A program made the position numbers and the translations under genes. The notes beneath the pieces were generated by a model that worked only from the letters and a program-made list of their open reading frames with translations, was not told the origin of the DNA and ran no database searches. From the NCBI RefSeq assembly GCF_000720765.1, contig NZ_JODC01000007.1, positions 496,001-560,000 on the forward strand: a stretch of DNA of 64,000 bases. Reading direction: 5' to 3'. Positions 42,315 to 59,315 of this stretch are shown here, one piece after another; position 1 is the first letter of the stretch, and each line of letters starts with the position of its first letter. Origin of the DNA: Streptomyces sp. NRRL S-646 (GTDB lineage Bacteria > Actinomycetota > Actinomycetes > Streptomycetales > Streptomycetaceae).

Positions 42315-42318
42315 CGTG

Positions 42319-43341: not shown

Positions 43342-43346
43342 CTGGC

Positions 43347-43988
43347 TCACCTCCTGGGGAGCAGCAAGGAACGGTGCCATTCAAAGAAAGCTGGAAGTAC
43401 GGCACGAAGGACACGGAAAGCTGATATTCCACCGCGGACCGTGCCGATTCGAACAAGTTCATGTTCAGGAGCGTCCACGACCACCCGCACGGCCGCAACC
43501 GGGCGCGCGCCGGTGCGCACGGCGCTCAGAAGCGTCGCCGCGGACTCCATGTCGACCGCGATCGCGCCGGTCGCGAGCAGATCCGACCGCTCGTGACCAC
43601 GTACGACATGATCGGAGCCGGTGACGGGGCCGGTGTGGACGGTGCGCCCGGGCACCGCGCGCCCGAGCTCCTTGACGAGCAGGTCGGTCCCCACGCACGG
43701 AACGGTTCCGTCCGGATCCCGGGTCTCCTCGGCGACGACCAGGTCCCCGGGGTGCATACCGGGGGCGAGCCCCGCACAGAAGCCGGTGGCCAGCACGGCC
43801 GCCCCGCTCCAGTCCGGGTCCGCGAGCATCCGGGTGACGGAGCGCTCGGCCGCCCTGGGCCCCATGCCTGTACGGAGCAGGGTGACGGGCCCGCCGGCCC
43901 CGCCCCGGTCCCCGGCGCGCAGGGCGAGGTGCTCGATGCCGAGCGCGCAGGCGATCAGCAGCGGGGCCGGGGCGGGCTGGGTGCTCAT
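43347..43988 (-). CDS. hpnG: Adenosylhopane nucleosidase HpnG
   Basis: The 213-residue protein belongs to the MTA/SAH nucleosidase-phosphorylase fold: LLIACALGIEHLALRAG, then VTLLRTGMGPRAAERSVTRML, GFCAGLAPGMHPGDLVVAEET and AVDMESAATLLSAV with the Glu that binds ribose. HpnG removes adenine from adenosylhopane, yielding ribosylhopane (or phosphoribohopane). Its ATG shares one base with the shc stop (TGATG). The methylthioadenosine-type loop is kept. Confidence 0.9.
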   Translation of the reverse strand: MSTQPAPAPLLIACALGIEHLALRAGDRGGAGGPVTLLRTGMGPRAAERSVTRMLADPDWSGAAVLATGFCAGLAPGMHPGDLVVAEETRDPDGTVPCVGTDLLVKELGRAVPGRTVHTGPVTGSDHVVRGHERSDLLATGAIAVDMESAATLLSAVRTGARPVAAVRVVVDAPEHELVRIGTVRGGISAFRVLRAVLPAFFEWHRSLLLPRR

Positions 43989-45994
43989 CAGCCCCCCTCG
44001 GCCTCGGCGAGAGGCTTCTTGGTGAAGGGCTCCCCGTTGACGTACCTGCCGAGTGCGGTCAGCGGGAAGACCTGCCGGTAGAGGTGGTAGTTGATCGAGA
44101 AGTCCCAGGGGAAGCCGGTCCCGGTGAAGTACGGCTCGTCCCAGGAACCGTCGTCCCGCTGGGTGGCCGCGAGCCATTCGACACCGCGCTCGACGGCCTT
44201 GGAGTCCTGCTCCCCCGCGGCCAGCAGGGCCATCAGCGCCCAGGCCGTCTGCGAGGCGGTGGAGGCACCCCTGCCGCTCCATTCCTTGACGTACTTGTAG
44301 GACCGCAGGTCCTCGCCCCAGCCGCCGTCGTCGTTCTGCACCGACTCCAGCCAGGCCACCGCCCGCCGGATCGCCGGGTGCGAGCCGGGGAAGCCGGCCG
44401 CGACGAGGGCGGGTACGACCGATCCGGTGCCGTAGACGTAGTTGACGCCCCAGCGCCCGAACCAGGAGCCGTCCGGTTCCTGCTCGGCGAGCAGCCACTC
44501 GATGCCGCGCCGGGTGCGCGGGTCGTGCGAGAGGCCCTCGACGGCCAGCATCTCCACCACGTGCGCGGTCACGTCCGCGGACGGCGGGTCGATGACCTCG
44601 CCGAAGTCGCAGAACGGCAGCCGGTTGGGGAAGGGGCTGGTGTTGTCGACGTCGAAGGCGCCCCACGCCCCGTTCTTCGACTGCATCCCGAGGTTCCAGC
44701 GCACCCCGCGCCCGATCGCCTTCTCCACCCGTTCCGGGTCGTGGTGCTTGACCCGGCGCAGCGCGAGGACCACCTCGGCGGTGTCGTCGATGTCGGGATA
44801 GTTGTCGTTGTGGAACTCGAACGCCCAGCCGCCGGGCGGCAGCCCGGGCCGTCTGACGGCCCAGTCGCCGGGCCGGACGATCTCCTCGCCGAGCATCCAG
44901 TCCGCCGCCTTGACGAGCTGCGGATGGTCGGCCGGCACGCCCGCGTCGACAAGCGCGATGGTGGCAAGGCAGGTGTCCCACACCGGCGACTGACAGGCTT
45001 CGATCATCCGGGCCCCGTCCTCGCGCCACACGGCGAAACGGTCCAGCGACGCCAGCCCCTCGCGCAGCACCGGATGTTCGAGGTCGTAGCCCAGCAGATA
45101 CAGGGCGATCACCGAGTACACGGCCGGCGGCTGGATACCGCCCCAGCAGCCGTCGTTCTCCTGCCGCTCGATGATCCAGCGGGCGGCCGAGTTCATGGCC
45201 GCCTTGCGCAGCCTGCGCGGGATGACCTTGCGCGCCTGGTGCAGCACCTTGTCCAGGCGCTGGAAGGCTCCGTCCCAACTCGCCGCCGGGGCAAGGGGCT
45301 TGCGCGGGTTCGGGTCGGCCGGGTCGGTGTGCAGCTCGTCGAGCGGGAAGGGCGCGGGCCGCACCGGCCGCTTCGCGGAGACGACCGTCAGCGGGACGAT
45401 CGTCTGCCGGGCCCAGCACCCGAAGTCGTAGATGTTGAGCGGTACCCACGTGGGGAAGTAGATGAGCTCCGGCGGGAGTTCGGGCAGGTCCTCCCACTTC
45501 CACCAGCCGAACAGGGCGAGCCAGATCCGGGTGAAGACCCGGGCCGCGGCGATGCCGCCCTGCTCGCGGATCCAGGCGGAGGCCTGTGCCATGTGCGGGG
45601 CGTCCGGCGTGTCGCCCGCCAGCCGCAGGGCGACGTATGCCTCGATGGTGGTGGAGAGTTCGCCCGGTCCGCCGTAGAAGGTGGCCCAGGTGCCGTCCTC
45701 GCGCTGCTCACCGCGGATGAACAGGGCGGCGGCGCGCGCGGTGTCCTCGTCCAGGATGCCCAGGAACTGCCGTAGGAGCAGGTCCTCGGCGTCCATGGTC
45801 ACGTTGGTCTCGAGGTCGCCCTTCCACCAGCCCTGGGCGTCCTGCCGGGACAGCAGGAAGTCGGTGGAGCGTTGTACGGCGCGTACGGCGGCATCGCGCA
45901 CCCCCGCCGCCACGGGGCTCGTGCTGTCGCTTTCGCTGGCCGAGGCTGCCCGGGGCGGCAGGGCCCCGGTGCTTCCGTCGGTCGTCGCTGTCAT
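43988..45994 (-). CDS. shc: Squalene-hopene cyclase
   Basis: The 668-residue cyclase turns squalene into hopene/hopanol at the membrane. It has many QW repeats (QDAQGWWKGDL, QREDGTWATFYGG, QENDGCWGG, QSKNGAWGAF, QEPDGSWFGRW, QNDDGGWGEDL, QRDDGSWDEPY) that brace the alpha-barrels. The protonating DXDD motif is DIDD in NDNYPDIDDTAEVVLAL (about residue 410). The C-terminus GFPWDFSINYHLYRQVFPL is typical. It ends in a TGATG junction with hpnG. The 116-bp gap upstream holds a stable hairpin; the ATG is preceded by GAAGGGGAAG. Confidence 0.97.
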   Translation of the reverse strand: MTATTDGSTGALPPRAASASESDSTSPVAAGVRDAAVRAVQRSTDFLLSRQDAQGWWKGDLETNVTMDAEDLLLRQFLGILDEDTARAAALFIRGEQREDGTWATFYGGPGELSTTIEAYVALRLAGDTPDAPHMAQASAWIREQGGIAAARVFTRIWLALFGWWKWEDLPELPPELIYFPTWVPLNIYDFGCWARQTIVPLTVVSAKRPVRPAPFPLDELHTDPADPNPRKPLAPAASWDGAFQRLDKVLHQARKVIPRRLRKAAMNSAARWIIERQENDGCWGGIQPPAVYSVIALYLLGYDLEHPVLREGLASLDRFAVWREDGARMIEACQSPVWDTCLATIALVDAGVPADHPQLVKAADWMLGEEIVRPGDWAVRRPGLPPGGWAFEFHNDNYPDIDDTAEVVLALRRVKHHDPERVEKAIGRGVRWNLGMQSKNGAWGAFDVDNTSPFPNRLPFCDFGEVIDPPSADVTAHVVEMLAVEGLSHDPRTRRGIEWLLAEQEPDGSWFGRWGVNYVYGTGSVVPALVAAGFPGSHPAIRRAVAWLESVQNDDGGWGEDLRSYKYVKEWSGRGASTASQTAWALMALLAAGEQDSKAVERGVEWLAATQRDDGSWDEPYFTGTGFPWDFSINYHLYRQVFPLTALGRYVNGEPFTKKPLAEAEGG

Positions 45995-46041
45995 GGCTTC
46001 CCCTTCGTGCAGTCGTACAGATCGTGCTGCTGTGGGTCCGC

Positions 46042-46080
46042 CGTCGGCCGGTGCTCGTGTTCCCGCGACACCGGCCGGCG
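46042..46080 (-). promoter_or_regulatory. Intra-operonic hairpin upstream of shc
   Basis: A 12-bp stem (CGTCGGCCGGTG with CACCGGCCGGCG, one G-U pair) closes a 15-nt loop in the 116-bp gap between the prenyl synthase gene and shc. No T-tract follows. It may be an attenuator or an RNA processing/stability element that sets shc output. Confidence 0.45.
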
Positions 46081-46110
46081 ACTACGCGAGGGCTATTCGA
46101 CCGATAGTGA

Positions 46111-47184
46111 TCATCTCTTTCGTACGACGACGAAGTCGGCGAGCGCCGTGAACTGTGCCCGCACCCGGTCGGGCATGTCGATGGCGTGCAGGGCCTGGAT
46201 GGCGGTGTTGTGCTGACGGCGCGCCTCTTCGGCGGTCCACTCGCGGCCGCCCGCCTCCTCGATGAGCGCGGCGCGGGAGGCGAACTCCTCCTCGGAGAAG
46301 TTCTCGAAGTCGCTGCTCTTGGCGTCGGCGGCGAGGATCTCGCCGAGCCGCTCGGAGGCGGATCCGCCCGCCGCGAGCGCGGCCACGACCGGCAGGGACT
46401 TCTTGCGCTGGCGCAGGTCGCTCCAGGTCTGCTTGCCGGTGGAGACCGGGTCGCCCCAGATGCCGAGCAGGTCGTCGACGGCCTGGAAGGCGAGGCCGAG
46501 GTGGTAGCCGTACTTCTCCAGGGTGTCGGCGGTTCGGTCGTCCGCGCCGCCGAGGACCGCGCCGATGGAGGAGGCGCAGGCGAGCAGGGCGCCGGTCTTG
46601 TTGCCCTCCATCTCCAGGCACTCCTCGACGCTGACGCGGTCGCGGTGCTCGTAGGAGATGTCCTGCGCCTGGCCGTCGATCAGGGCGCGGGTGGCGGTGG
46701 TCAGGCGGCGGGTGGCGCGACCCGCCTCGACGGTGCCGAGCTCCAGCAGGATCTCGTTGGCGAGGGCGAACAGGGCGTCGCCGACGAGGATCGCCTGGGC
46801 GGGGCCGTGCACCTTCCAGACGGTGTCACGGTGGCGGCGCTGTTCGTCGCCGTCCATCAGGTCGTCGTGCAGGAGGGAGAAGTTGTGGACGAGTTCGACG
46901 GCGACGGCGCCGGGGATGCCGATCTCGGGTGCGGCGCCGGTGACCTCGGCGGAGAGCACCGCGAGGGCGGGGCGCACGGCCTTGCCGCCGTCGCCGTCGG
47001 CGGGGTTGCCCTCGGCGTCGATCCAGCCGAAGTGGTAGGCGGAAACGGTGTCCATGGGAGGGGCCAGGCGGTCGACGGCCGCCCGCAGTACCGGTGTGGC
47101 AAGGGTCCGGCCGCGCTCCAGGAGCGCGGTCACGTCCACCGCGGTCCTCTCAGCGGCCGCTTCGGCCGGGGGCACAGTGGGCAC
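46111..47184 (-). CDS. Polyprenyl (farnesyl-type) diphosphate synthase
   Basis: The 357-residue all-helical isoprenyl synthase has the first aspartate-rich motif in HNFSLLHDDLMDGDEQRR (about residue 105) and the second in GLAFQAVDDLLGIWGDP, together with GKAVRPAL and DLRQRKKSLPV. It elongates DMAPP with IPP; in this operon the product is presumably farnesyl diphosphate for squalene. The GTG at 47184 has AAGGAG 6 nt upstream and is preferred; an ATG at 47244 forming TGATG with the hpnE stop would add 20 residues. Confidence 0.9.
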   Translation of the reverse strand: MPTVPPAEAAAERTAVDVTALLERGRTLATPVLRAAVDRLAPPMDTVSAYHFGWIDAEGNPADGDGGKAVRPALAVLSAEVTGAAPEIGIPGAVAVELVHNFSLLHDDLMDGDEQRRHRDTVWKVHGPAQAILVGDALFALANEILLELGTVEAGRATRRLTTATRALIDGQAQDISYEHRDRVSVEECLEMEGNKTGALLACASSIGAVLGGADDRTADTLEKYGYHLGLAFQAVDDLLGIWGDPVSTGKQTWSDLRQRKKSLPVVAALAAGGSASERLGEILAADAKSSDFENFSEEEFASRAALIEEAGGREWTAEEARRQHNTAIQALHAIDMPDRVRAQFTALADFVVVRKR

Positions 47185-47243
47185 AGTTTCTCCTTTTTCT
47201 GCGGTACCGGGGGTGCGGGGGCCTGCCGGATGCTGATCGAGCA

Positions 47244-48674
47244 TCACGCCGCCTCCTCGAGCTCGAAGAGGCGACTCGGACGGGGCCGGCCCAGGGCGGC
47301 GAGGGCGGCGTCCGCCGCACTCACTCCACTGCGGACCGCACTCTCCATGGTCGCGGGCCACCCTGTGGCGGTCCACGCTCCGGCCAGGTAGAGGCCGGGG
47401 GCTTTGGTACGGGCGCCGGGCCGCAGCCGTCCGACGCCGGGGGTGGGAGCGAAGGTGGCCGTGCGCTCCCTGGTCACGAAGAAATCCTTCACCTCGGCGC
47501 CGCGCGTACCCGGAAGCAGCCGTTCCAACTCGGGCAGATAGCGCTCGCGCAGCACGGCGACCGGCTCGTCGATCTCGTCCTGCGCCGCCGACTGGGACAG
47601 GGCGAGGTACTGGCCCTCGCGCAGCCCGGAGGCGTCGGTGCGGTCGAAGACCCACTGCACGGGGGTGCCGAGGGCCGCGAAGAACGGCTTCTCGAGCACC
47701 TTGCGGTCGTAGACGACATGCACGTTGAGGATCGGCACGGTGCCGATCTCCAGAAGATTTTCGGGGGCGTCCAGCGCCCCCTGAGGCAGCAGGTCGTGGG
47801 CCTCGCGCTGGGGTACGGCGAGCACGACGGCGTCCGCGGCGAGGATCTCGCCGGGAACCTGAACGCTCCAGCGCCCGTTTTCGTCAGTGGAGATGGAGGT
47901 GACGCGTGTACGGACCTCGGTACGGACGCCCGCGGAGTCGAGCGCCTTGCGGGCGAGCCGGTCATGCAGTTCGCCCAGCGGGACGTGCGCCCATCCGATG
48001 TCGGCCGCGCCCGGGTCGGACAGCAGACCGGTCTTGAACACCATCGCGGCGAGCCCCAGCGAGGCGTCGCCCGCGACCGCGTTGAGGGTGGCGACCCCGA
48101 CCAGGTCCCACAGGGCCTCGACGGCACGCGCCGACTGACCGTGCGCGGTCAGCCAGCTGCCGAAGTCCTGCGTGTCCAGGTCCGGATCGGCGAGGTCGAG
48201 CCCCTTGAGCGCGAGCGCGGCCCGGCCCACCTTGGCCCGTTCGGCGAGCGAGAGATGCGGATACGTGGCGAGGCTGCGCCCCAGGTGCAGCGGCACCGGC
48301 AGGGCGTCGCGCCGCAGTCTGCCGAGCCTCCGCCCCTCGGGCTTGTCGACGTCGAGTACGGGCACGTCGAGACGATCCTGCAGCGGCGCCAGCGCCGTCC
48401 CCTCGATGCGGTCGAGGAACCAGCGGTAGGCGGTGCAGCAGCGCAGGTAGACGTGCTGTCCGTTGTCGACGGTCAGGTCGCCGCGCTGGAAGGAGAAGGC
48501 GAGGCCGCCGAGGCGGGGCCTGCCCTCGATCAGGGTGACGCGGACTCCCGCGTCGGCGAGTGCGAGTGCGGCGGTGATTCCGGCCAGCCCGCCGCCGACC
48601 ACGACGGCGTCCCTTGCGGAACGCCCCGCCGGATCCGCGAGCGGCTCGTCCGCCCGCGTGCCGTCGTCGCTCAT
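47244..48674 (-). CDS. hpnE: Hydroxysqualene dehydroxylase HpnE
   Basis: The 476-residue FAD protein opens with a Rossmann motif VVVGGGLAGITAALALADAGV and ends each domain like phytoene-desaturase-type oxidoreductases (VDNGQHVYLRCCTAYRWFLDR; VVLAVPQREAHDLL; GLYLAGAWTATGWPATMESAV). HpnE reduces hydroxysqualene to squalene, the last of the three HpnD-HpnC-HpnE steps. Its ATG overlaps the stop of the small upstream ORF (ATGA). The cofactor-binding GRPRLGG follows the first strand. Confidence 0.93.
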   Translation of the reverse strand: MSDDGTRADEPLADPAGRSARDAVVVGGGLAGITAALALADAGVRVTLIEGRPRLGGLAFSFQRGDLTVDNGQHVYLRCCTAYRWFLDRIEGTALAPLQDRLDVPVLDVDKPEGRRLGRLRRDALPVPLHLGRSLATYPHLSLAERAKVGRAALALKGLDLADPDLDTQDFGSWLTAHGQSARAVEALWDLVGVATLNAVAGDASLGLAAMVFKTGLLSDPGAADIGWAHVPLGELHDRLARKALDSAGVRTEVRTRVTSISTDENGRWSVQVPGEILAADAVVLAVPQREAHDLLPQGALDAPENLLEIGTVPILNVHVVYDRKVLEKPFFAALGTPVQWVFDRTDASGLREGQYLALSQSAAQDEIDEPVAVLRERYLPELERLLPGTRGAEVKDFFVTRERTATFAPTPGVGRLRPGARTKAPGLYLAGAWTATGWPATMESAVRSGVSAADAALAALGRPRPSRLFELEEAA

Positions 48675-48808
48675 CGTGCACCCTCCCCTGCGCGACCGCC
48701 GTGGTTGAACGGTGCACGGCAGACCGCTGCAGTCAGGGACGCCGTCCCCGCCCGGAGGGTTGCGTGCCGCTTTTCATCGGTGACATCACCTTGGCCCTGT
48801 TTGTCCAT
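48671..48808 (-). CDS. 45-aa conserved ORF between hpnD and hpnE (DUF6380-like)
   Basis: The product MDKQGQGDVTDEKRHATLRAG continues TASLTAAVCRAPFNHGGRAGE to the stop. It starts within a TGATG junction with hpnD and ends in an ATGA overlap with hpnE, so it fills the space exactly. It resembles the small DUF6380 proteins of Streptomyces from memory. No membrane helix or known motif is present; one cysteine occurs at about residue 29. The precise double overlap argues that it is translated. It could assist HpnD/HpnE or only act as a coupling cistron. Confidence 0.65.
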   Translation of the reverse strand: MDKQGQGDVTDEKRHATLRAGTASLTAAVCRAPFNHGGRAGEGAR

Positions 48809-49758
48809 CAGGCGCGCCTCCTGACGGTCCTCCGCGTCACATGCCGGGCATCCAGTCCGGACAGGCCGCGTACGGCGACGTAGGCCTTCTCCCGGCCGGG
48901 CAGCGAGACCCGGCCGCGCAGCACGGCCTCCGGGTCGCGCTCGATGCGGTCGAGCAGCCGGCGGTAGATGCCGGCCATCGCGGCGACACAGGCGCCGCTG
49001 CGCCGGTCCAGCATGGGCAGCAACCGGTAGCCCTCGGCGAAAAGGGCGCGGGCCCGTCGCACTTCGAAGTGCACGAGGCCCGCGAAGTCGGAGCCCTCCG
49101 GTGGGGTCGGCCCGCTGAACCCGGCCGAGCACCCGAATTTCGCGAGGTCGTCGGAGGGCAGATAGGTGCGGCCGCCCTCGGCGTCCTCGCGGACGTCTCT
49201 GAGGATGTTGGTGAGCTGCAGCGCGAGGCCCAGGGTGTCGGCGTACTCCGGGGCACGATCGGCGCCGCGCGCCCCGGGTTCCGTGCCGAACACGCCGAGC
49301 GAGAGCCGTCCGATGGCGCCCGCGACGCAGCGGCAGTAGACCTTCAGGTCGTCCCAGGTCTCGTAGGTCTCGCCGCGTACGTCCATCAGCACGCCGTCGA
49401 TCAGCTCGTCCAGGCCGTCGAGCGGGATCGGGAAGGTCTCGGCGGAATGGGCGAGGGCGACAGCGACCGGGTCGATGTCGTCCTCGGCGACCGATCCGTC
49501 ACGCACCCGGGCCAGCAGCGCCCGGGTGTCCTCGAGTCTTGCCGCCTTGACCTCGCCGGCCAGCGCGCCGTCGCCGATGTCGTCGACGCGCCGGGAAAAC
49601 GCGTAGAGCGCCGACATCGCGCGGCGCTTGGGCGTCGGCAGCAGCCTGATGCCGTAGGCGAAGTTACGGGCCTGCTGTCCGGTGACGGCCTCGCAGTAGC
49701 TGTAGGCGGCGAGTACCGGTGCGGACGCGTGTTGTTCCGACTCCACGGTCCGGATCAC
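48808..49758 (-). CDS. hpnD: Presqualene diphosphate synthase HpnD
   Basis: The 316-residue squalene/phytoene synthase family protein has both aspartate motifs: SRRVDDIGDGAL (about residue 57) and TNILRDVREDAEGGRTYLP (about 185), plus YCRCVAGAIGRLSLGVFG. It joins two farnesyl diphosphates into presqualene diphosphate, which HpnC then turns into hydroxysqualene. GTG start, overlapping hpnC stop (GTGA). Confidence 0.93.
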   Translation of the reverse strand: MIRTVESEQHASAPVLAAYSYCEAVTGQQARNFAYGIRLLPTPKRRAMSALYAFSRRVDDIGDGALAGEVKAARLEDTRALLARVRDGSVAEDDIDPVAVALAHSAETFPIPLDGLDELIDGVLMDVRGETYETWDDLKVYCRCVAGAIGRLSLGVFGTEPGARGADRAPEYADTLGLALQLTNILRDVREDAEGGRTYLPSDDLAKFGCSAGFSGPTPPEGSDFAGLVHFEVRRARALFAEGYRLLPMLDRRSGACVAAMAGIYRRLLDRIERDPEAVLRGRVSLPGREKAYVAVRGLSGLDARHVTRRTVRRRA

Positions 49759-50642
49759 CCCTCTCCTCGCAGAGTCACGCCCACCTCGCGCAGCAACTGG
49801 ACCTTGCCGGGCTTGGGCGGGCCGGGAAGTACGTCGTATTCCACGGCGGCGATCGCCTTGATCGCCGCCCTTCCCCCCGCCACGAATCCCGCAAGCAGCA
49901 GCTTCAACCTGCCGTGGACGCTACCCACGAGGGGGGCGCCTTCATTCAGGAGATCGCGGGCGCGTTGCGCTTCGTATGCAACCAGTGCGCGCAACGATGC
50001 GCCCGCGGTGGAGGTGGCGAGATCCGCCTCTTGAACATGGAACTGCTTCATGTCCTCTGCGGGCAGATAGATGCGGTCGCGGCCGAGGTCCTCGGCGACG
50101 TCCTGCAGGTGTTCGACGATCTGGAGGGCCGTGCAGATCGCGTCCGAGAGGCGGATGCGTTCGGGGGTCGAGGTGCCGGTGACGGACAGGACCAGGCGGC
50201 CGACGGGATTGGCCGACAGTTCGCAGTACGCGAGCAGGTCGTCGTAGGTCTCGTAGCGGCTGACGAGCTGGTCCTGGCGGTTGGCGGCGATCAGGCCGAG
50301 GAACGGCTCGGGGGTGAGCGCGCAGCGGCGGACCGTGTGCTGGAGGCGGCGCAGGAGGGGGTGGCGCGGGGTCGAGTCGAAGACCCGGTTCAGGTCGGCC
50401 TCGAAGGCGTCCAGGAGCAGCAGCCGGTCCTCGGCGTCCTCGGGCGACACGCCGAGCAGACGGGCGTCGGTGCCGCCGGGGGCCAGATCGCCGTCGCCGA
50501 TGTCGTCGACGAGGCGGGCGAATCCGTACACGGCCATGAGGTCGGCGCGCCAGGCCCTGGGCAGGAAGAAAGGTGCCACGGGGAAGTTCTCGCCCGCGGC
50601 CTTGTCGAGCGTGTCGCGCTCCGGATCAACGGCGTGCGACAT
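49755..50642 (-). CDS. hpnC: Hydroxysqualene synthase HpnC
   Basis: The 295-residue protein is the second squalene-synthase-like enzyme. It has FARLVDDIGDGDLAPGG (about residue 45), YCELSANPVGRLVLSVTG and EHLQDVAEDLGRDRIYLPAED. The ATG at 50642 gives the usual length; a frame opening 15 codons earlier lacks similarity. It converts presqualene diphosphate to hydroxysqualene. It is first gene of the hopanoid operon; the 400-bp upstream region holds the operon promoter, a palindrome and the terminator of the next operon. Confidence 0.92.
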   Translation of the reverse strand: MSHAVDPERDTLDKAAGENFPVAPFFLPRAWRADLMAVYGFARLVDDIGDGDLAPGGTDARLLGVSPEDAEDRLLLLDAFEADLNRVFDSTPRHPLLRRLQHTVRRCALTPEPFLGLIAANRQDQLVSRYETYDDLLAYCELSANPVGRLVLSVTGTSTPERIRLSDAICTALQIVEHLQDVAEDLGRDRIYLPAEDMKQFHVQEADLATSTAGASLRALVAYEAQRARDLLNEGAPLVGSVHGRLKLLLAGFVAGGRAAIKAIAAVEYDVLPGPPKPGKVQLLREVGVTLRGEG

Positions 50643-50862
50643 GCCGGTTCCCGTCACCGGTGACTGCCCGGGGCGGGGACGGCACATGCTGCGTTCAGCT
50701 GGGGAGTTTCCGTAGCCATTGCCGTCACATCTCCCGTTCTACACTGCCGACCCAATGCATACTATTTCGGACACGCCGCCCGGCCGTCCGCGCGGCTGTC
50801 CCGCTTGAGGCTGTCGCGCATTATCGCCCCAGTTTGCCGCGTTTCGGGACCGGTACAGCTTA

Positions 50863-51044: not shown

Positions 51045-51833
51045 CTACTTGCCGGTGAACTTCTCGTACTCCTTGAGGACCTCTTCGGTCGGCCCGTCCA
51101 TGCGCAGCTCCCCGCGTTCCAGCCACAGGACGCGGTCGCAGGTGTCGCGGATCGACTTGTTGTTGTGGCTGACGAGAAACACCGTGCCGGCCTCCTTGCG
51201 CAGCTCACGGATGCGTTCCTCGGAGCGCTTCTGGAACTTGCGGTCGCCGGTGGCCAGCGCCTCGTCGATCATCAGGACGTCGTGGTCCTTGGCGGCGGCG
51301 ATGGAAAAGCGCAGGCGGGCCGCCATGCCGGAGGAGTAGGTGCGCATCGGCAGGGTGATGAAGTCACCCTTCTCGTTGATGCCCGAGAAGTCGACGATCG
51401 ACTGGTAGCGCTCCCTGATCTGCTCGCGGGTCATCCCCATGGCGAGCCCGCCCAATATGACGTTGCGCTCGCCTGTCAGGTCGTTCATCAGGGCCGCGTT
51501 CACGCCCAGCAGCGAGGGCTGGCCGTTGGTGTAGACGCGGCCCTTCTCCGCCGGGAGCAGGCCGGCGATGGCGCGCAGCAGCGTCGACTTGCCGGAGCCG
51601 TTGGAGCCGATGAGGCCGACGGCCTCACCGCGGTAGGCGACGAAGGAGACGCCCTTGACGGCGTGCACCTTGCGCACCCCGCGCTCCTCGCCGCGCTTGA
51701 CGATGCGGCTGAGGGCGGCGGTGGCGCTGCCCTTGCCGGTCTTGGCGCCGTGCACGCGGTAGACGATGTGGAGCTCGTCGGCGATGACGGTGGGGATCCG
51801 CTCCCCGGTCTGCTGGTCGGTCTGCTCAGCCAC
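51045..51833 (-). CDS. ABC transporter ATP-binding protein, TagH-like (polysaccharide export)
   Basis: The 262-residue ATPase has Walker A GLIGSNGSGKSTLLRAIAG (about residue 75), an ABC signature region YSSGMAARLRFSIAAAKDHDV and Walker B LMIDEALATGD with H-loop VSHN. The TGERNVILGGLAMGMTREQI block is typical of TagH/Wzt-like exporters of O-antigen or teichoic acid. It energises the permease, which is encoded just upstream with an 8-bp overlap. It is the last gene of the envelope operon. Confidence 0.93.
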   Translation of the reverse strand: MAEQTDQQTGERIPTVIADELHIVYRVHGAKTGKGSATAALSRIVKRGEERGVRKVHAVKGVSFVAYRGEAVGLIGSNGSGKSTLLRAIAGLLPAEKGRVYTNGQPSLLGVNAALMNDLTGERNVILGGLAMGMTREQIRERYQSIVDFSGINEKGDFITLPMRTYSSGMAARLRFSIAAAKDHDVLMIDEALATGDRKFQKRSEERIRELRKEAGTVFLVSHNNKSIRDTCDRVLWLERGELRMDGPTEEVLKEYEKFTGK

Positions 51834-52755
51834 GGCCGTACCTCTCCTCCGCCTTCCAGAAGTACACGAACCCGCCGAGGGCGATCAGGGCGGCCCAGCC
51901 GCCCGCGACCACCCAGACATGGTCGGGCAGGTTCTCCGAGCCGTAGCCGTCGATGAGCGCGAAGCGCATCAGGTCCATGTAGATGGCGGCCGGGTTCCAC
52001 TGCAGGACGTTCGCCAGCCACTGCGGCTTGTCGGCCAGCATGATCGGGATGGAGAACATCACGCCCGACGCGTACATCCACGTCCGCATCACGAACGGCA
52101 TCAGCTGGGCGAGGTCCGGGGTCTTGGCCCCCGCGCGGGCCATGATCAGCGCGAGGCCGGTGTTGAACAGGAACTGCAGGGCCAGCACCGGGACGATCAG
52201 CAGCCAGGACAGGTCCGGGTAGCTGCCGAAGGCGGCCGCCACGGCGAACAGCACGATCATCGAGAACAGCAGCTGCTGCAGCTGCTGCAGTGCGAAGGAG
52301 ATCGGCAGGGAGGCGCGCGGGAAGTGCAGCGCGCGGACCAGGCCGAGGTTGCCGGAGATCGCACGCACGCCCGCCATCACCGAGCTCTGCGTGAAGGTGA
52401 ACACGAACACACCGGTGACCAGGAACGGGATGTATACCTCGCGGGGCAGTCCGCGGTTGGCCTTGAGGATCATGCCGAAGATGAAGAAGTACACGGCCGC
52501 GTTCAGCAGCGGCGTGGCCACCTGCCACAGCTGGCCGAGCTTGGCCTGGCTGTACTGGGCGGTCAGCTTCGCCCGGGAGAAGGCGAGGATGAAGTGACGC
52601 CGGTCCCAGAGCTGGCGGACGTACTCGACAAGGGAGGGCCGGGCGCCGCTCACGGTCAGCCCGTACTTCTCGGCCAGCCGGCTCGCCGGGAGGCCCTCGT
52701 CGGGCGGCATGGCCGCGCCCAGGGCGACCGTGCCGTCGTGCGTTGTCTCACTCAC
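51826..52755 (-). CDS. ABC transporter permease, TagG-like
   Basis: The 309-residue permease has six hydrophobic helices of the ABC-2 type. It shows RHFILAFSRAKLTAQYSQAKL, LGQLWQVATPLLNAAVYFFIF, NLGLVRALHFPRASLPISFAL and VLQWNPAAIYMDLMRFALIDG, typical of Wzm/TagG exporters of lipid-linked polysaccharides. GTG start. It exports a polymer across the cytoplasmic membrane with its ATPase. It overlaps the ATPase gene by 8 bp and follows the GT2 gene by 96 bp. Confidence 0.93.
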   Translation of the reverse strand: MSETTHDGTVALGAAMPPDEGLPASRLAEKYGLTVSGARPSLVEYVRQLWDRRHFILAFSRAKLTAQYSQAKLGQLWQVATPLLNAAVYFFIFGMILKANRGLPREVYIPFLVTGVFVFTFTQSSVMAGVRAISGNLGLVRALHFPRASLPISFALQQLQQLLFSMIVLFAVAAAFGSYPDLSWLLIVPVLALQFLFNTGLALIMARAGAKTPDLAQLMPFVMRTWMYASGVMFSIPIMLADKPQWLANVLQWNPAAIYMDLMRFALIDGYGSENLPDHVWVVAGGWAALIALGGFVYFWKAEERYGRG

Positions 52756-52851
52756 TGGTGGAAACTTTCGTCTTCGGGATGCGCAGCCTGTGCGGGCATG
52801 GGCAAGAGCCTGGGGCCCGGGTGGGGCCGATTGCTCACAGGAACGAGCTTG

Positions 52852-53733
52852 TCAGATCACCGGAGGTCGGCCCAGCCGGGTCAGCCGCCACACCGTACGC
52901 CACTTCATCGGCCTGCGTGGCCCGCACGGAGTGGTCCAGCCTTCCCGGAACCCGCCGAACCACGCCTTCAGGGCGGGCCGCGAGGGGCGGCGGACAAGGG
53001 TGAGCAGCAGCCAGACCCCGAGGTAGACCGGGACCAGCAGGGCCGGAAGGTTGCGGCGGGCCAGCCAGACCCGGTTGCGGGCGACCATGCGGTGGTAGAC
53101 CGCATGCCGCGAGGGCGCGGTCGTCGGGTGGTACAGCACCATGTCGGACCGGTAGTCGATCATCCAGCCCGCGTCGAGGGCCCGCCATGCCAGGTCGGTT
53201 TCCTCGTGGGCGTAGAAGAATTCGTCCGGGAGCCCGCCGACTTCGGCGAAGACCTTCGTGCGGACGGCGTTGGCGCCGCCGAGGAAGGTGGTGACCCGGG
53301 AGGAGCGCATCGGGTCGGCGGCGCGCAGGCGCGGCACGTGGCGGCGCTGGGTGACCCCGGTGTCGGGGTCGGCGATGCGGAAGCTGATGATGCCGAGCTT
53401 CGGGTCGGCCTCGAAGGCCTGGCGGCACAGCTCGGCGGTGTCGTGCTGGGCGAGGAGTCCGTCGTCGTCGAGGAACATCAATATGTCGACGTCGCGGCCG
53501 CTGGGGCCGAAGGCCTCTATGCCGACGTTACGGCCGCCGGGGATACCGAGGTTCTCGGGCAGCTCGATCGTACGGACGCCCTCGGGGACGTCCGGGACGG
53601 GCGAGCCGTTGCCGACCACGACCACCTCGACCCCGTCGCCGTCCTGCTTGGCGACCGAGTCGAGCAGGGCGCGGAGCTCGTCGGGGCGGTTGCCCATGGT
53701 GATGATCACCGCGCCGACTCGCATGCCGCTCAC
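52852..53733 (-). CDS. Glycosyltransferase family 2
   Basis: The 293-residue GT-A protein shows AVIITMGNRPDELRALLDSVA near the N-terminus, LPENLGIPGGRNVGIEAF, the DXD-like motif MFLDDDGLL (about residue 90), TTFLGGANAVRTKVFAEVGGL and EETDLAWRALDAGW. C-terminal hydrophobic stretch VPVYLGVWLLLTLV suggests membrane attachment. It likely adds a sugar to the exported polymer. The GTG start makes a GTGA overlap with the CDP-alcohol transferase gene; an ATG three codons later is possible. Confidence 0.9.
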   Translation of the reverse strand: MSGMRVGAVIITMGNRPDELRALLDSVAKQDGDGVEVVVVGNGSPVPDVPEGVRTIELPENLGIPGGRNVGIEAFGPSGRDVDILMFLDDDGLLAQHDTAELCRQAFEADPKLGIISFRIADPDTGVTQRRHVPRLRAADPMRSSRVTTFLGGANAVRTKVFAEVGGLPDEFFYAHEETDLAWRALDAGWMIDYRSDMVLYHPTTAPSRHAVYHRMVARNRVWLARRNLPALLVPVYLGVWLLLTLVRRPSRPALKAWFGGFREGWTTPCGPRRPMKWRTVWRLTRLGRPPVI

Positions 53734-54509
53734 TTCAGCCTGCTGGAGGCGAGGATGGACACGAGGTGCAGCAGGGTCTGCAGCAGGGCGATGCCGGCCA
53801 GCACCGCGACGCCCAGCCGGGAGAAGAACAGGTCGCCGTGCATCTGGTCGACGATCGCCAGCACCAGGATGAGCAGGGATGCCTCGATGCCGAGGATCAG
53901 CCGGTGGAACTTGAACGCGGCGGCGGCCCGGCGGGCCAGCGCCATGCCGGAGGAGCGCATCTCGGCGGCGGCCTCCTGCACCGGCGGCTTGCCCGTCTGG
54001 TGGCGGGCGACGCCGACCAGGTCGGTCTCGGCCTTGATCAGGATGGCGCCGAGCGCGGCCAGGGTGCCGAGAAAGGCCCACAGCCAGTCGATACGGCCGC
54101 TGCCCCACAGGTCGGCGGCGCGCAGCCCGAAGCCGACGAGGACGGCGGCGTCGGTGAGGTAGGCGCCGACCCGGTCGAGGTAGACGCCGTTCAGCGAGTA
54201 CTGCTTCTTCCAGCGGGCGATCTCGCCGTCGACGCAGTCCAGCAGCAGGTACATCTGCACGCAGACCACGCCGAGCACGGCGCCCGTGATCCCCGGCACC
54301 AGCAGGGCCGGGGCGGCGAGCACGCCGAAGACGGTCATCAGATACGTGAGCTGGTTGGGCGTGACCCTGGTGTTCACCAGGTAGCGGTCGACCCGCAGGG
54401 ACACCTCACGCATGTAGAGGCGTCCCATCCAGTGCTCACCGCTGCGCCGGTCCTTGACCCCTGCGGGGTGGACGACCGGGCGGAGTTCAGCTACCGATGG
54501 CCTTGACAT
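53730..54509 (-). CDS. CDP-alcohol phosphotransferase with altered motif
   Basis: The 259-residue membrane protein has about six helices and the CDP-alcohol phosphatidyltransferase signature at about residue 90. It reads D-x2-DG-x2-AR-x8-G-x3-D-x3-A in DCVDGEIARWKKQYSLNGVYL followed by DRVGAYLTD. The last aspartate of the usual motif, a candidate catalytic base, is alanine. An Asp lies four residues farther on. The enzyme presumably transfers a phospho-alcohol from its CDP derivative to a membrane acceptor, but may be altered in mechanism. It overlaps the dehydrogenase gene by 23 bp and GT2 by 4. Confidence 0.85.
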   Translation of the reverse strand: MSRPSVAELRPVVHPAGVKDRRSGEHWMGRLYMREVSLRVDRYLVNTRVTPNQLTYLMTVFGVLAAPALLVPGITGAVLGVVCVQMYLLLDCVDGEIARWKKQYSLNGVYLDRVGAYLTDAAVLVGFGLRAADLWGSGRIDWLWAFLGTLAALGAILIKAETDLVGVARHQTGKPPVQEAAAEMRSSGMALARRAAAAFKFHRLILGIEASLLILVLAIVDQMHGDLFFSRLGVAVLAGIALLQTLLHLVSILASSRLK

Positions 54510-55548
54510 AGTCGGCGTAAATGTCCTTGATCTGGTCGGTTGTGAGGTCGAGGTGTTCGAGGATCGTGTAGCGGCCGGGCCGGGTCTCCGGAGCGAACTC
54601 GACGGCACGGACGAACTCGTCCACCGTGAAGCCGATCTCCTCCGGGAGCACCGGAAGCCCGTGCCGGCGCAGCACCTCGGCCGTGTACGCCGACTCCTCG
54701 TGCGCGCCGCGCAGGTACATCGCGAAGGCGGCGCCGAGGCCGCACTGCTCGCCGTGGCTGGCGGCGCGCTTGGGGTAGAGCAGGTCGAAGGCGTGGTTGA
54801 TCTCGTGGCAGGAGCCCGAGGCGGGGCGCGAGTCGCCGGAGATCGACATCGCGATGCCGGTGAGAACCAGCGCCTCCGCGAGCACCTGGAGGAAGTCGTT
54901 GTCCCCGATGCCGCCGGGGTGGCGGAGCACCGCCTCGCCCGCCTGGCGGGCCATGGCGGCGGCAAGGCCGTCGATCTTCTCGCCGTTGACGCGGTTGGAC
55001 AGCTCCCAGTCCGCGATGGAGTTGATGTTGGAGATCGCGTCGCCGATGCCCGCGCGCACGAAGCGCGCCGGAGCCTGGCGGATGACGTCGAGGTCGATGA
55101 CGGCCGCGATCGGGTTCGGCACACCGTACGAGCCGCGGCCGGCGTCGTTGTCGAGGGTGGCGACCGGCGAGCACAGCCCGTCGTGCGCGAGGTTCGTCGG
55201 CACGGCCACCAGGGGCAGGCCGACCCGGGCCGCGGCGAACTTGGCACAGTCGATGATCTTGCCGCCGCCGAGGCCGACGACCGCGTCGTAACGGCCGGCC
55301 TTTATCTCGCCGGCCAGCCGCACCGCGTCGTCGAGGGTGCCGCCGCCGACCTCGTACCAGGTGGCACCGGGCAGGGTCGGGGCGATGCGCTCGCGCAGCC
55401 GGGCGCCGGAACCGCCGCTGACGGCGACGGCGAGCCTGCCCGAAGTCGAGATGCGTTCGTCGGCCAGCACGCAGGCCAGATCGTCGAGGGCACCCGGGCG
55501 GATGTCCACGACGAGCGGCGAGGGGATGAGCCGGGTCAGTACTGGCAC
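54487..55548 (-). CDS. Glycerol-1-phosphate-dehydrogenase-like enzyme (iron-ADH fold)
   Basis: The 353-residue protein belongs to the iron/zinc-dependent dehydroquinate-synthase-like group: VVGLGGGKIIDCAKFAA (NAD loop, about residue 95), VPTNLAHDGLCSPVATL, then metal ligands in CHEINHAFDLL and ASHGEQCGLGAAFAM. It is close in pattern to archaeal EgsA and Bacillus AraM, which reduce dihydroxyacetone phosphate to sn-glycerol-1-phosphate. Here a polyol phosphate made in this way would feed the nucleotidyltransferase and CDP-alcohol enzymes. The GTG start has GGGAG upstream and overlaps the previous stop by 13 bp. Confidence 0.85.
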   Translation of the reverse strand: MPVLTRLIPSPLVVDIRPGALDDLACVLADERISTSGRLAVAVSGGSGARLRERIAPTLPGATWYEVGGGTLDDAVRLAGEIKAGRYDAVVGLGGGKIIDCAKFAAARVGLPLVAVPTNLAHDGLCSPVATLDNDAGRGSYGVPNPIAAVIDLDVIRQAPARFVRAGIGDAISNINSIADWELSNRVNGEKIDGLAAAMARQAGEAVLRHPGGIGDNDFLQVLAEALVLTGIAMSISGDSRPASGSCHEINHAFDLLYPKRAASHGEQCGLGAAFAMYLRGAHEESAYTAEVLRRHGLPVLPEEIGFTVDEFVRAVEFAPETRPGRYTILEHLDLTTDQIKDIYADYVKAIGS

Positions 55549-56288
55549 GCGATCTCCCGTCCGCGGGCGAGATCGTCGTGGTTGTCGATCTCGACCCACT
55601 TGACGTCGCCGATCGGCGCCGCGTCGATGGTGAAGCCGACGTTGATGAGCTCCTGGTAGCCGTGCTCGTAGAACTGCTGCGGGTCCTTCTCCCAGACGGT
55701 CTTCAGCGCCTCACCGAGTTCCTCGGCGGCCGAGCCCTCAATCAGGGTGACGCCGATGTACTCACCGGTGGCCTCGGCCGGGTCCATCAGCTTGGTGATC
55801 CGCTGGACGCCCAGGCCGGGGTCCACGACGACCTTCATCTCCTCGTCGGCGAGGGGCTTCACGGTGTCCACGGCCAGGATGATCTGCTTGAACTCGTCCC
55901 GCGCCGCGAGCAGCGTCTTCTCGACGGAGACCGGGTGCACGGTGTCGCCGTTGGCGAGGATCACCCCGTCCTTGAGGGCGTCACGGCCGCACCACAGGGA
56001 GTAGGCGTTGTTCCACTCCTCGGCCTTGTCGTTGTCGATGAGGGTGAGCTTGAGGCCGTACTTCGCCTCCAGCGCGGCCTTGCGCTCGTACACGGCTTCC
56101 TTGCGGTAGCCGACGATGATCGCGACCTCGGTCAGACCGATCTCGGCGAAGTTGCCGAGTGTCAGGTCGAGAACCGTGGGTTCGCCCTCTATGCCCGCGG
56201 GCCCCACCGGCACCAGAGCCTTGGGAAGGCTGTCGGTGTAGGGGCGCAGACGGCGTCCGGCGCCGGCCGCCAGCACGAGGCCGATCAT
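55536..56288 (-). CDS. Sugar/alcohol-phosphate nucleotidyltransferase
   Basis: The 250-residue Rossmann-like enzyme starts LVLAAGAGRRLRPYTDSLPKA, the NTP-binding G-x-G-x-R loop of nucleotidyltransferases, with DNDKAEEWNNAYSLWCGRDAL and LANGDTVHPVSVEKTL (metal Asp). The C-terminal part has INVGFTIDAAPIGDVKWVEID. It activates a phosphorylated polyol as its CDP (or other NDP) derivative. Context with the dehydrogenase and two CDP-alcohol transferases suggests CDP-glycerol or CDP-inositol-like products. It overlaps the DUF5941-type gene by 4 bp. Confidence 0.88.
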   Translation of the reverse strand: MIGLVLAAGAGRRLRPYTDSLPKALVPVGPAGIEGEPTVLDLTLGNFAEIGLTEVAIIVGYRKEAVYERKAALEAKYGLKLTLIDNDKAEEWNNAYSLWCGRDALKDGVILANGDTVHPVSVEKTLLAARDEFKQIILAVDTVKPLADEEMKVVVDPGLGVQRITKLMDPAEATGEYIGVTLIEGSAAEELGEALKTVWEKDPQQFYEHGYQELINVGFTIDAAPIGDVKWVEIDNHDDLARGREIACQY

Positions 56289-58072
56289 GCGGGTTCTCCT
56301 TCATCGTGTACGGCGGGGGCCCCGGAGGACACCCAGAAGCGGATGCTCTCGACGAGCACCACCAGGGCGACGGCCACGGCAACCACCGCGAGCGCAACCT
56401 TGAACTGCGAGGCGGTGAGCACCGCGGCCAGGACGGTGACGAGCAGCGTCCGCCCTTCGTGCCCCCCGATGGCGCGCACCAGCCAGGCCGGGGACGCTCC
56501 GGCGTTGCCGCGGATGCGATACACCGTGTCGTAGTGATGGTAGGCGACGGCCGCCACCAAGCCGAAAGCCGCAGGAAGGGCTCCGTTCACGTCCGCTTTG
56601 GCCGCGAGGATCAGGACGGTGCCGTATTCGGCGAACCTGAACAGCGGGGGGACCAGCCAGTCGAGGGCGCCCTTGAGGGGCCGGTACAGGGCCTGACCGG
56701 CGGCGTTCGCGTACACGAGGGCTCCGACGACGGGTGCCCAGGTCACGTCGGAGAAGAGGGAGACGGCGAGGACCGCCGTCCCGGCAGCCGCGACCAGCAG
56801 CGGGGCGCCGAGGCGGGCCCGTGTGGCACGCGCCACGAGGGAGGCGAGCGGTCCGTTGTCCGCGAGGTCCGCGAGCGCCTGCGCGGCACGGTCGGTGCGC
56901 TGTGCCTTGCGGGTCAGCGAGCGCAGCACCCGGCCCGCAGTGGTGTACGTCGCGGCGAAGGCGCAGCCGATGAGCAGGACGTAGAAGGTGATGCGGGGGG
57001 TCGTGACCGCCGTCAGGACCGCGATCATCGCCCAGCGCTCGCCGATCGGCAGCACGATCATGCGGCGCACCCACACCGTCCAGCCGACGCTGTCCAGTTT
57101 GTCCGAAAGGGCCGCCGTGGGGCTGGTGTTGGCGGTCGCGTCGTGGTTGGCCTCGTTGAAGGAGAAGTCGACGACGTGCCGGCAGGTCTGAAGGATCATC
57201 GCGCCGAGCGCCAACGCCCAGACGTCGTCGCCGCCTCGGGCCGCTCCCAGCGCCAACCCCGCGTAATAGGCGTACTCCTTGGCCCGGTCGAAGGTGGCGT
57301 CCAGCCAGGCGCCGAGCGTGGAGTACTGCAGGGAGTAGCGAGCCAGCTGGCCGTCGGTGCAGTCCAGTACGAAGGACGCGATCAGCAGGACGCCCGCCGC
57401 GACGAAGCCGAGCCGGGTGCCGGTGGCCGCGCAGCCCGCCGCGATCAGCGCGGTGAGCAGGGAGGCGGTGGTGACCTGGTTCGGAGTCAGCCCGCGGCGG
57501 GCGCACCAGCGGGCGATGTAGCGGGAGTACGGGCTGATGAAGAACGTGGTGAAGAAACCGTCGCGGGACTTCACGGCCGACTTCAGACGTACGGCCTCGT
57601 CGTCGACGTTCGCGACCGCCTGCCGTGCCTCGTTGCGGGACTGCGGGTCGGCGGGGACGGCGGCGACCAGACTGCCGAGTTCCGGGTGGTGCACGTCGGC
57701 GCCGTCGCTGTCGAGGGCGGTGACGATGCGGTCGGCGAGGCTGTCGACCGCGAGTGCCGTGCCGCCGCCGGCCGAGTTCTCGCGGGCCATCGCACGGGTC
57801 AGGGCCTGGCGGCCGGCCGGCTGGGCGGTCACGGCGCCGGGGACCGCGGCGAGCGGGAAGCGGGGGTCGGTGAGGCCGAGGCGCAGTGCGTGCAGGTGGC
57901 CCACGAAGCGGGCGTCCACCACGGCGACCCGCTGGTCACCGGGTACCTGGGCCAGCAGCGTCTCGGCGTCGGCGGTGTCGGCTGCGATCCGTACGTCGAA
58001 ACCGAGGGACCGCAGATCGCCCTCGATCGACGATCCGGGGACCGGCTGACCGGTGAGGATGGCGGTCGACAA
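56285..58072 (-). CDS. CDP-alcohol phosphotransferase with N-terminal NTP-transferase-like part (DUF5941 type)
   Basis: This 595-residue protein has a 160-residue soluble N-terminal part (VVDARFVGHLHALRLGLTDPR). A CDP-alcohol transferase domain follows with the full motif DCTDGQLARYSLQYSTLGAWL then DATFDRAKEY. After that come many hydrophobic helices to the C-terminus (VRAIGGHEGRTLL region), as in DUF5941. Fused nucleotidyl-/CDP-alcohol enzymes make di-myo-inositol phosphate in hyperthermophiles; the analogy is mine. Start is TTG with GGGAG upstream. It is first gene of the envelope operon. Confidence 0.85.
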   Translation of the reverse strand: MSTAILTGQPVPGSSIEGDLRSLGFDVRIAADTADAETLLAQVPGDQRVAVVDARFVGHLHALRLGLTDPRFPLAAVPGAVTAQPAGRQALTRAMARENSAGGGTALAVDSLADRIVTALDSDGADVHHPELGSLVAAVPADPQSRNEARQAVANVDDEAVRLKSAVKSRDGFFTTFFISPYSRYIARWCARRGLTPNQVTTASLLTALIAAGCAATGTRLGFVAAGVLLIASFVLDCTDGQLARYSLQYSTLGAWLDATFDRAKEYAYYAGLALGAARGGDDVWALALGAMILQTCRHVVDFSFNEANHDATANTSPTAALSDKLDSVGWTVWVRRMIVLPIGERWAMIAVLTAVTTPRITFYVLLIGCAFAATYTTAGRVLRSLTRKAQRTDRAAQALADLADNGPLASLVARATRARLGAPLLVAAAGTAVLAVSLFSDVTWAPVVGALVYANAAGQALYRPLKGALDWLVPPLFRFAEYGTVLILAAKADVNGALPAAFGLVAAVAYHHYDTVYRIRGNAGASPAWLVRAIGGHEGRTLLVTVLAAVLTASQFKVALAVVAVAVALVVLVESIRFWVSSGAPAVHDEGEPA

Positions 58073-58349: not shown

Positions 58350-59315
58350 ATGACATGGCTGATCACAGGCGGAGCGGGATACATAGGGGCCCATGTGGTG
58401 CGGGCCATGACCGGCGCCGGGGAGCACGTCGTCGCGCTGGACGACCTCTCGGCCGGGTTCCCCGAGCGGCTGCCGGCGAACGTGCCGCTCGTCGAGGGCT
58501 CGACGCTCGACGGCGATCTGCTGAAGAGGGTCTTCGCTGAGTACGGGGTGACCGGCGTCATCCACCTCGCCGCGCGCAAGCAGGTCGCCGAGTCCGTGGC
58601 GCAGCCCACCCGCTACTACCGGGAGAACGTCGGCGGTCTCGCGACGCTCCTGGAGGCGGTCGCCGAGGCCGGGGTCGGGAAGTTCCTGTTCTCCTCGTCC
58701 GCGGCCGTCTACGGCAACCCCGATGTGGACCTCATCACCGAGGACACCCCGTGCGCGCCGGTGAACCCGTACGGCGAGACCAAGCTCACCGGCGAGTGGC
58801 TGGTCCGGGCGGCGGGCCGCGCACACGACATCTCCACGGTCTGTCTGCGCTATTTCAACGTGGCGGGCGCTGCCGCACCCGAGCTGGCCGACACGGGCGT
58901 CTTCAACATCGCCCCCATGGTCTTCGACCGGCTCACCCGTGACGAGGCCCCGCGGATCTTCGGCGACGACTATCCGACACCGGACGGCACCTGCATCCGC
59001 GACTACATCCACGTCGCCGACCTGGCCGAGGCGCATCTGGCCGCAGCACTGCGGCTCGCCGGCCGCGGCGGTGACCTCACGGTGAACATCGGCCGCGGCG
59101 AGGGTGTCTCCGTCCGTGAGCTGATCACCGTCATCGGCGACGTGACCGGCGACCGCCGCCCGGCCCTCGTCGAGGGCCGCCGCCCCGGGGACGCGCCCCG
59201 CGCGGTCGCCTCCGCCGCCCGGGCCGCCGAGGAACTGGGCTGGACGGCCCGGCGCGGGGTGCCCGAGATGGTCGGGTCGGCGTGGCGGGGCTGGCTGCTG
59301 CACCACGGCAGGTGA
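58350..59315 (+). CDS. galE: UDP-glucose 4-epimerase
   Basis: The 321-residue short-chain dehydrogenase-like enzyme shows WLITGGAGYIGAHVVRAMTGA (NAD loop), GVIHLAARKQVAESV, the catalytic SSSAAVYGNP with Tyr/Lys in NPYGETKLTGEWL, and LRYFNVAGAA. It interconverts UDP-glucose and UDP-galactose (or N-acetyl forms). The ATG at 58350 with AAGGTG upstream is preferred; a frame opening far upstream at 58053 reads across the divergent promoter. It faces the envelope operon and could supply its nucleotide sugars; an alpha-galactosidase is also nearby. Confidence 0.93.
   Translation: MTWLITGGAGYIGAHVVRAMTGAGEHVVALDDLSAGFPERLPANVPLVEGSTLDGDLLKRVFAEYGVTGVIHLAARKQVAESVAQPTRYYRENVGGLATLLEAVAEAGVGKFLFSSSAAVYGNPDVDLITEDTPCAPVNPYGETKLTGEWLVRAAGRAHDISTVCLRYFNVAGAAAPELADTGVFNIAPMVFDRLTRDEAPRIFGDDYPTPDGTCIRDYIHVADLAEAHLAAALRLAGRGGDLTVNIGRGEGVSVRELITVIGDVTGDRRPALVEGRRPGDAPRAVASAARAAEELGWTARRGVPEMVGSAWRGWLLHHGR

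Follow-up and report, generated by a model that had tools for sequence, protein, structure and literature searches.

A conserved seven-gene operon of Streptomyces and its possible role in a glycerol-phosphate envelope pathway

How do Streptomyces make a glycerol-phosphate donor when none of 61 genomes searched has a TagD above its curated cut-off? TagD is the maker of cytidine diphosphate (CDP)-glycerol in Bacillus, and TagF-type enzymes use CDP-polyols. A specific and testable answer is offered by an operon in Streptomyces sp. NRRL S-646, which we analyzed within a stretch of 64,000 nucleotides (contig NZ_JODC01000007.1, positions 496,001 to 560,000; hereafter the window). Seven uninterrupted genes, here called A to G, occupy positions 51045-58072 of the minus strand and are transcribed from 58072 toward 51045. 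The distances between them, taken in order from A to G, are -4, -13, -23, 5, 96 and -8 bases, and five of the six junctions overlap or are at most 5 bases apart. A preliminary description of this DNA had reported seven same-direction genes, close or overlapping, and had assigned each to a class; the coordinates and junction distances bore out the former, and Pfam and NCBIfam profile searches, from which the domain classes below are taken, bore out the latter. One label had to be amended. Gene A, called a two-domain CDP-alcohol transferase, does carry a CDP-alcohol transferase domain, but only one; its other parts appear to be a cytidylyltransferase-like fold and DUF5941. The features, with lengths in amino acids (aa), are as follows.

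56285..58072, minus strand: gene A, 595 aa; cytidylyltransferase-like N-terminal domain without nucleotide loop, CDP-alcohol phosphotransferase domain with signature aspartates D1-D4 intact, and DUF5941
55536..56288, minus strand: gene B, 250 aa; LicC-kind nucleotidyltransferase (PF00483/PF12804), presumed CTP:glycerol-1-phosphate cytidylyltransferase (CTP, cytidine triphosphate)
54487..55548, minus strand: gene C, 353 aa; glycerol-1-phosphate dehydrogenase-like enzyme, PF13685 (Fe-ADH_2); start codon set from its 353-aa relatives
53730..54509, minus strand: gene D, 259 aa; CDP-alcohol phosphotransferase without the fourth signature aspartate, PF01066
52852..53724, minus strand: gene E, 290 aa; family 2 glycosyltransferase (GT2), PF00535
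51826..52755, minus strand: gene F, 309 aa; ABC-2 permease, TagG/Wzm-like, PF01061 (ABC, ATP-binding cassette)
51045..51833, minus strand: gene G, 262 aa; ABC ATPase, TagH/Wzt-like, PF00005
58073..58349, no strand: presumed promoter region, 277 bases separating the start of A from the divergent galE-like gene
58350-59315, plus strand: galE-like gene (epimerase domain), divergent from A; predicted start

On balance, and with restrained confidence, we favor the reading that the operon is a self-contained glycerol-phosphate envelope pathway whose products make, activate, attach and export the unit. Judging from the sequence, this unit is probably the mirror-image form of glycerol phosphate that is used in archaeal lipids. 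The product of C would reduce dihydroxyacetone phosphate to sn-glycerol-1-phosphate (G1P), from which, with CTP, B would form a CDP-glycerol opposite in handedness to the TagD product. The membrane transferases A and D would place the phospho-glycerol moiety on a lipid or a lipid-linked glycan, E would add sugar, and the lipid-linked product would leave the cell interior through the ABC exporter F-G. The CDP-glycerol from B and C may, in many strains, also supply TagF-like polymerases encoded elsewhere. What we observed is which genes are present, how they are ordered, conserved and found together, and which motifs they encode; from this we infer every substrate in this scheme, as well as its stereochemistry, the acceptor, and the product, including its being a polymer.

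Conservation of the operon and the B-C pair

Of 80 Streptomyces loci, 76 preserve the order A to G, with protein identities of 76-98%, and the remaining four reach a contig end inside the operon. An order common to so many loci is not a matter of chance, and A-G is a real, conserved Streptomyces operon. We then considered a phylum sample of 396 genomes, 20 of them Streptomyces, in which the searches for C, TagF-like proteins and TagD scored only the best few candidates per genome. The DUF5941 domain of A was found in 28 of these genomes, in 27 above its cut-off, and a relative of C (E <= 1e-20) in 59; all 20 Streptomyces had both.

The preliminary description had called for a comparison of genome neighborhoods, and the whole order proved to be kept in Streptomyces and much of the cassette in distant loci. 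Among 21 loci taken from other genomes, L120 holds all seven genes in the Streptomyces order and L119 holds B, C, D, A and E, followed farther along by F and G. A to E lie in order in L117 and L121 (in L117 F is at the contig edge), while L161 combines F and G with B to E. Gene D adjoins E in six of the seven distant loci that have a relative of D; in L119, the seventh, the two are separated by A. Related cassettes therefore occur in distant actinobacteria. In L121 two LytR-CpsA-Psr-like genes lie upstream, which fits an envelope polymer.

B and C are commonly neighbors. C is present in 17 of the 21 loci, of which L167 and L168 hold second copies of Streptomyces genomes and L158 and L170 come from one genus, and in 14 of the 17 a B gene lies at most 300 bases away on the same strand. 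The exceptions are L159, on a contig of 4.3 kb; L160, whose B gene is about 15 kb off on the same contig, as L122 shows; and L168, at which no B was found. The neighbors of the pair change: a short CDP-alcohol transferase in L158 and L170, a sugar transferase in L164 and L165, a TagF-like gene in L166 and L169. A pair that persists amid changing neighbors suggests that B and C together produce a CDP-activated alcohol used by various enzymes. L164 and L165, from other actinobacteria, also have a DUF4012 protein beside the pair and the sugar transferase, and L165 a type I phosphodiesterase; these loci perhaps serve another envelope polymer built from the same donor. The extra Streptomyces copies of C, accompanied by B in L167, lie next to RNase E/G and Obg genes, and L168 is also near TagF-like genes.

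Several lines of evidence suggest that C is likely a G1P dehydrogenase. Its best NCBIfam match is PRK00843, the archaeal G1P dehydrogenase model, at 241 bits (below the curated cut-off of 413), and the related proteins of L158, L164 and L120 reach 204-252 bits; other dehydrogenase profiles reach at most 85 bits with C, the score of the glycerol dehydrogenase model. Among solved structures the G1P dehydrogenase 4rgq came first (E 2.1e-42). Five motifs, which we take to form the metal and substrate sites and whose positions were read from the alignment to 4rgq, are all kept in 120/120 Streptomyces proteins, the best 120 of 3480 matches. We also compared 16 further C proteins, 14 of them from other genera and two the second Streptomyces copies (the L166 gene had not been called). 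All 16 contain GGGxxxD, the DG motif and SGxxHxxxH; GxGD is present in 14, and the last HG is clear in 14. The best solved relative of B is LicC (1jyk, E 7.6e-12). A nucleotide loop pattern was found in B and in 10 of 12 relatives of B tested, and not in the cytidylyltransferase-like domain of A.

Two dissimilar CDP-alcohol transferases

The predicted structure of A begins with a cytidylyltransferase-like fold, which is followed by a single CDP-alcohol transferase domain and, at the C-terminal side, by DUF5941. The loop pattern was absent from this N-terminal domain in all 120 Streptomyces and all 8 distant A proteins examined. The transferase domain of A has the full signature D1xxD2GxxAR...GxxxD3xxxD4, and D4 is aspartate in 120/120 of its best relatives. 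Gene D is different. It keeps D1 to D3, and in place of D4 it has alanine in 120/120 Streptomycetaceae proteins (the best 120 of 1643 matches) and histidine in all seven distant relatives; D thus does not match the full signature, though PF01066 still matches it. Five other CDP-alcohol transferases of this genome keep aspartate at D4. A further member of the family (L004; G000, the genome studied here, contig C7, 740877-741296) has no NCBIfam match at E <= 1e-8.

The available part of one study describes eight absolutely conserved residues in this signature, with D4 as the likely catalytic base and a D4N substitution that nearly abolishes activity (PMC4634129); a passage of another presumes D4 to be both base and metal ligand (PMC6506517). 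As read from its sequence, D may have lost its activity, although its conservation renders this less likely, or else it works with a different acceptor or base. We consider that D, without the usual catalytic base, probably has another acceptor than A, and we speculate that an ionized phosphate acceptor would make a base unnecessary. An aspartate at D4+4, present in 120/120 Streptomyces D proteins, was considered as a substitute base and rejected, since A and AF2299 likewise carry an acidic residue at that position while keeping D4. The predicted structure of D has a mean predicted local distance difference test (pLDDT) score of 56.9; its best Foldseek match is AF2299 (E 2.9e-4), and it was not used to describe the active site. 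D is a natural test of the need for the fourth aspartate in CDP-alcohol transfer.

A bolder version of the pathway can be stated, and we hold it only tentatively, as a possibility less likely than the general scheme. In Streptomyces and in distant actinobacteria, an envelope glycopolymer or lipid-linked glycan might be built from G1P by way of TagD-independent CDP-glycerol, with D founding a CDP-alcohol transferase subfamily that does without D4. Its acceptor could be, for example, an already ionized polyprenyl phosphate, so that the chain start would resemble that of TagO while using a CDP-alcohol.

Teichoic acid genes, phospholipids and competing explanations

We searched 61 Streptomyces for TagD (TIGR01518, cut-off 165.4 bits) and found none above the cut-off; in this genome there was no match at E <= 0.001. 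TagF-like proteins (PF04464) are present in 57 of the 61, in one case (G425) weakly. No PF04464 protein, the TagB/TagF type of glycerophosphotransferase, lies within A-G, and three lie elsewhere in this genome; the TagO/TagA linkage-unit families were not among the Pfam matches of A-G, the rest of the genome not having been searched for them. The exporter genes resemble known models at a distance, G reaching 180 bits with the TagH model (cut-off 320) and F 51 bits with the galactan export permease model (cut-off 380).

These genes bear on the most serious competitor, namely that the operon provides a priming or linkage unit and the exporter for ordinary Streptomyces teichoic acid, with the chain made by a TagF-like cluster elsewhere and B-C feeding both. 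In its favor, a different contig of this genome carries three TagF-like genes together with paralogues of F (68%), G (79%) and galE (67%), there is no TagD match in the genome, and in L123 A adjoins relatives of TagF and TagGH. The cluster (L184; G000 contig C15, 26000-45900) comprises a second tagGH, three GT2-TagF-like genes and the galE paralogue, as well as an open reading frame of 212 aa beside tagG. According to the accessible part of a study of S. roseosporus, normal sporulation depends on a tagG under TagR control, the tagG of B. subtilis complements its loss, and a second, apparently constitutive tagGH pair, orf659/orf658, has 60.5/73.4% identity (PMC10269677). From these partial data the TagR-controlled pair probably corresponds to the exporter of the TagF cluster and F-G to orf659/orf658, and the sporulation result would then concern the paralogue, not F. 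Against a subordinate role stands the fact that the TagF cluster has an exporter pair of its own. Moreover, C is kept in four Streptomyces without a PF04464 match, G416, G417, G428 and G444 (82% complete), in which only C and not the whole operon was searched for, and G278, the genome of L120, has the whole operon and no PF04464 match. These cases indicate that the operon can probably function without TagF, and we regard the teichoic acid explanation as possible although rather unlikely.

A link between C and TagF-like proteins is also visible across the phylum sample. With thresholds of E <= 1e-40 for a strong TagF-like protein, at least 156 bits for C and E <= 1e-25 for TagD, 45 of the 396 genomes have a strong TagF-like protein, of which 28 have C, 5 have TagD (4 of them above its curated cut-off), none has both and 12 have neither. 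Outside Streptomyces (376 genomes), C is present in 28, a strong TagF-like protein in 25 and both in 8 (Fisher P 1.6e-4). Within the TagF-bearing set, C and TagD exclude each other with P 0.005 when genomes are counted and with a modest one-sided P of 0.04 when genera are, the latter from 19 genera of which one, g95, stands under both TagD and neither; all of these tests ignore shared ancestry. Comparing C with TagD over all 396 genomes was discarded as evidence, the overlap being 0 (48 and 18 genomes) where about 2 would be expected, which is not significant alone. Eleven of the 59 C matches (including that of G352, which also has a TagD-like match) and 24 of the 69 PF04464 genomes had been dropped as weak, and of the 18 TagD genomes 7 exceed the curated cut-off.

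Lipid pathways fared less well. A role of A and D in the synthesis of a known phospholipid, for instance phosphatidylinositol, would agree with their weak matches to the PIPS and archaetidylinositol phosphate synthase models. These reach at most 64 bits for A and 44 for D (40-64 bits) against cut-offs of 170-180, and PgsA, ClsA, PIPS and PssA are separate genes above their cut-offs (L001, L002, L003, L005), which argues that A and D are not these enzymes; this reading is largely refuted, and we give it hardly any weight. That the genes make archaeal-type ether lipids is, to our judgment, just as improbable. The idea draws on a report, seen in part, which names Streptomyces among bacteria with species that have all three archaeal genes and in which archaeal-like lipids are possible (PMC6431249). 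However, PcrB/GGGPS was unmatched in all of the 61 Streptomyces, which speaks against such lipids here (other Streptomyces may have it; as a control, 7 of 14 genomes gave a match, 5 above the cut-off), and the operon encodes an exporter as well as a glycosyltransferase but lacks a prenyltransferase.

Other observations weigh against the favored pathway. The place of C under its PRK00843 cut-off and the nearly equal score of 3ce9, a structure named glycerol dehydrogenase (E 1.5e-41; the next such structure, 1kq3, has E 8.8e-18), make another substrate possible, and LicC acts on phosphocholine. The unit could then be a different CDP-activated polyol or phospho-sugar, C reducing another keto compound and B, which is from a family of mixed specificity, acting specifically on the product. 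With the G1P dehydrogenase profile far ahead of all others for C and with B-C beside TagF-like genes in L166 and L169, we think this improbable. In addition, D without D4 could be no working transferase; matches to the TagD model below its cut-off (E <= 0.001, up to 70.2 bits) occur in 43 of the 61 Streptomyces; the exclusion of TagD by C is, as said, modest at genus level; and G311 has A, D, E, F, G and a TagF-like gene while C is missing at E <= 1e-20, which implies that the transferases do not require B-C in every case. The favored flow, in which a G1P-like unit is made, activated with CTP, transferred and exported, had already been proposed in the preliminary description, and it agrees with the B-C pairing, the lack of an above-cut-off TagD and of PcrB/GGGPS, and the location of the phospholipid synthases elsewhere. 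Likewise, the statement that this is no standard teichoic acid or phospholipid pathway held when defining parts of these pathways were sought.

Genomic context, earlier work and known systems

Directly downstream of the operon lies an apparent hopanoid cluster (37816-50687, minus strand) with two squalene/phytoene synthase family genes, an amine oxidase, a polyprenyl synthase, a squalene-hopene cyclase, a radical S-adenosylmethionine (SAM) protein with DUF3463, GcpE, DXS and a class III aminotransferase. Genes like hpnC/D/E follow the operon in 74 of the 80 Streptomyces loci. A functional link was considered and set aside, since these genes were unmatched in 8 distant loci (blastp, called genes) and in 21 loci (tblastn, E <= 1e-6), and we take the adjacency as local order. 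Farther away, at 27750-28946 on the minus strand, lies a gene for a protein with DUF6250.

The operon had been called possibly undescribed, which does not hold in full. Under the heading of teichoic acid biosynthesis, a 2026 paper, in the passage available, lists this synteny in Streptomyces genomes as crtB, tagH, tagG, araM, a CDP-alcohol transferase, a GT2 and a nucleotidyltransferase, and that passage contains no experiment on it (PMC13118837), and the related tagGH of S. roseosporus has been studied (PMC10269677, in part). In the literature that we searched, which left most subscription journals outside its coverage, we found no experimental study of the operon, no mention of DUF5941, and nothing joining G1P, CDP-glycerol, cytidylyltransferase, dehydrogenase and Streptomyces. 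As for the polymers themselves, the accessible text on S. hygroscopicus reports that its lipoteichoic acid is of the glycerol-phosphate type, as is its wall teichoic acid, and that clear LtaS orthologues are missing from Streptomyces genomes; the terms sn-glycerol and stereo are absent from that text (PMC3196553). The synteny, then, is already known, and the explanation that we prefer for it is a TagD-independent envelope pathway that is probably based on G1P, as far as sequence comparison can tell. If true, bacterial G1P dehydrogenase would gain a use beyond archaeal-like lipids, and the glycerol of some actinobacterial polymers would have the opposite handedness to that of Bacillus wall teichoic acid.

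Several known systems resemble parts of this operon. With EgsA/AraM, the archaeal and bacterial G1P dehydrogenases, C shares the fold family and the metal-site and substrate motifs; unlike them, it is tied to a nucleotidyltransferase and envelope genes and not to a prenyltransferase (PcrB/GGGPS). A joins a cytidylyltransferase-like fold to a CDP-alcohol transferase, as do IPCT-DIPPS and AF2299. It does not qualify as a bifunctional enzyme of the IPCT-DIPPS kind, as the loop pattern of an active cytidylyltransferase was not found in its fold-like N-terminal domain; the cytidylyltransferase is apparently the separate protein B, DUF5941 is an addition, and the operon includes an exporter. The closest solved relative of D is the Archaeoglobus protein AF2299, from which D differs in having no D4. 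F-G belong to an exporter type related to the TagR-controlled tagGH of S. roseosporus, as far as the available part of its description goes (PMC10269677). Finally, the wall teichoic acid pathway (TagO-A-B-D-F-G-H) has in common with our locus the logic of a CDP-polyol donor, a TagGH-like exporter and, elsewhere in the genome, TagF-like genes. In contrast to that pathway, there is no TagD above its cut-off here, the donor apparently comes from B-C, and CDP-alcohol membrane transferases take the place of TagB/TagF-type enzymes in the operon.

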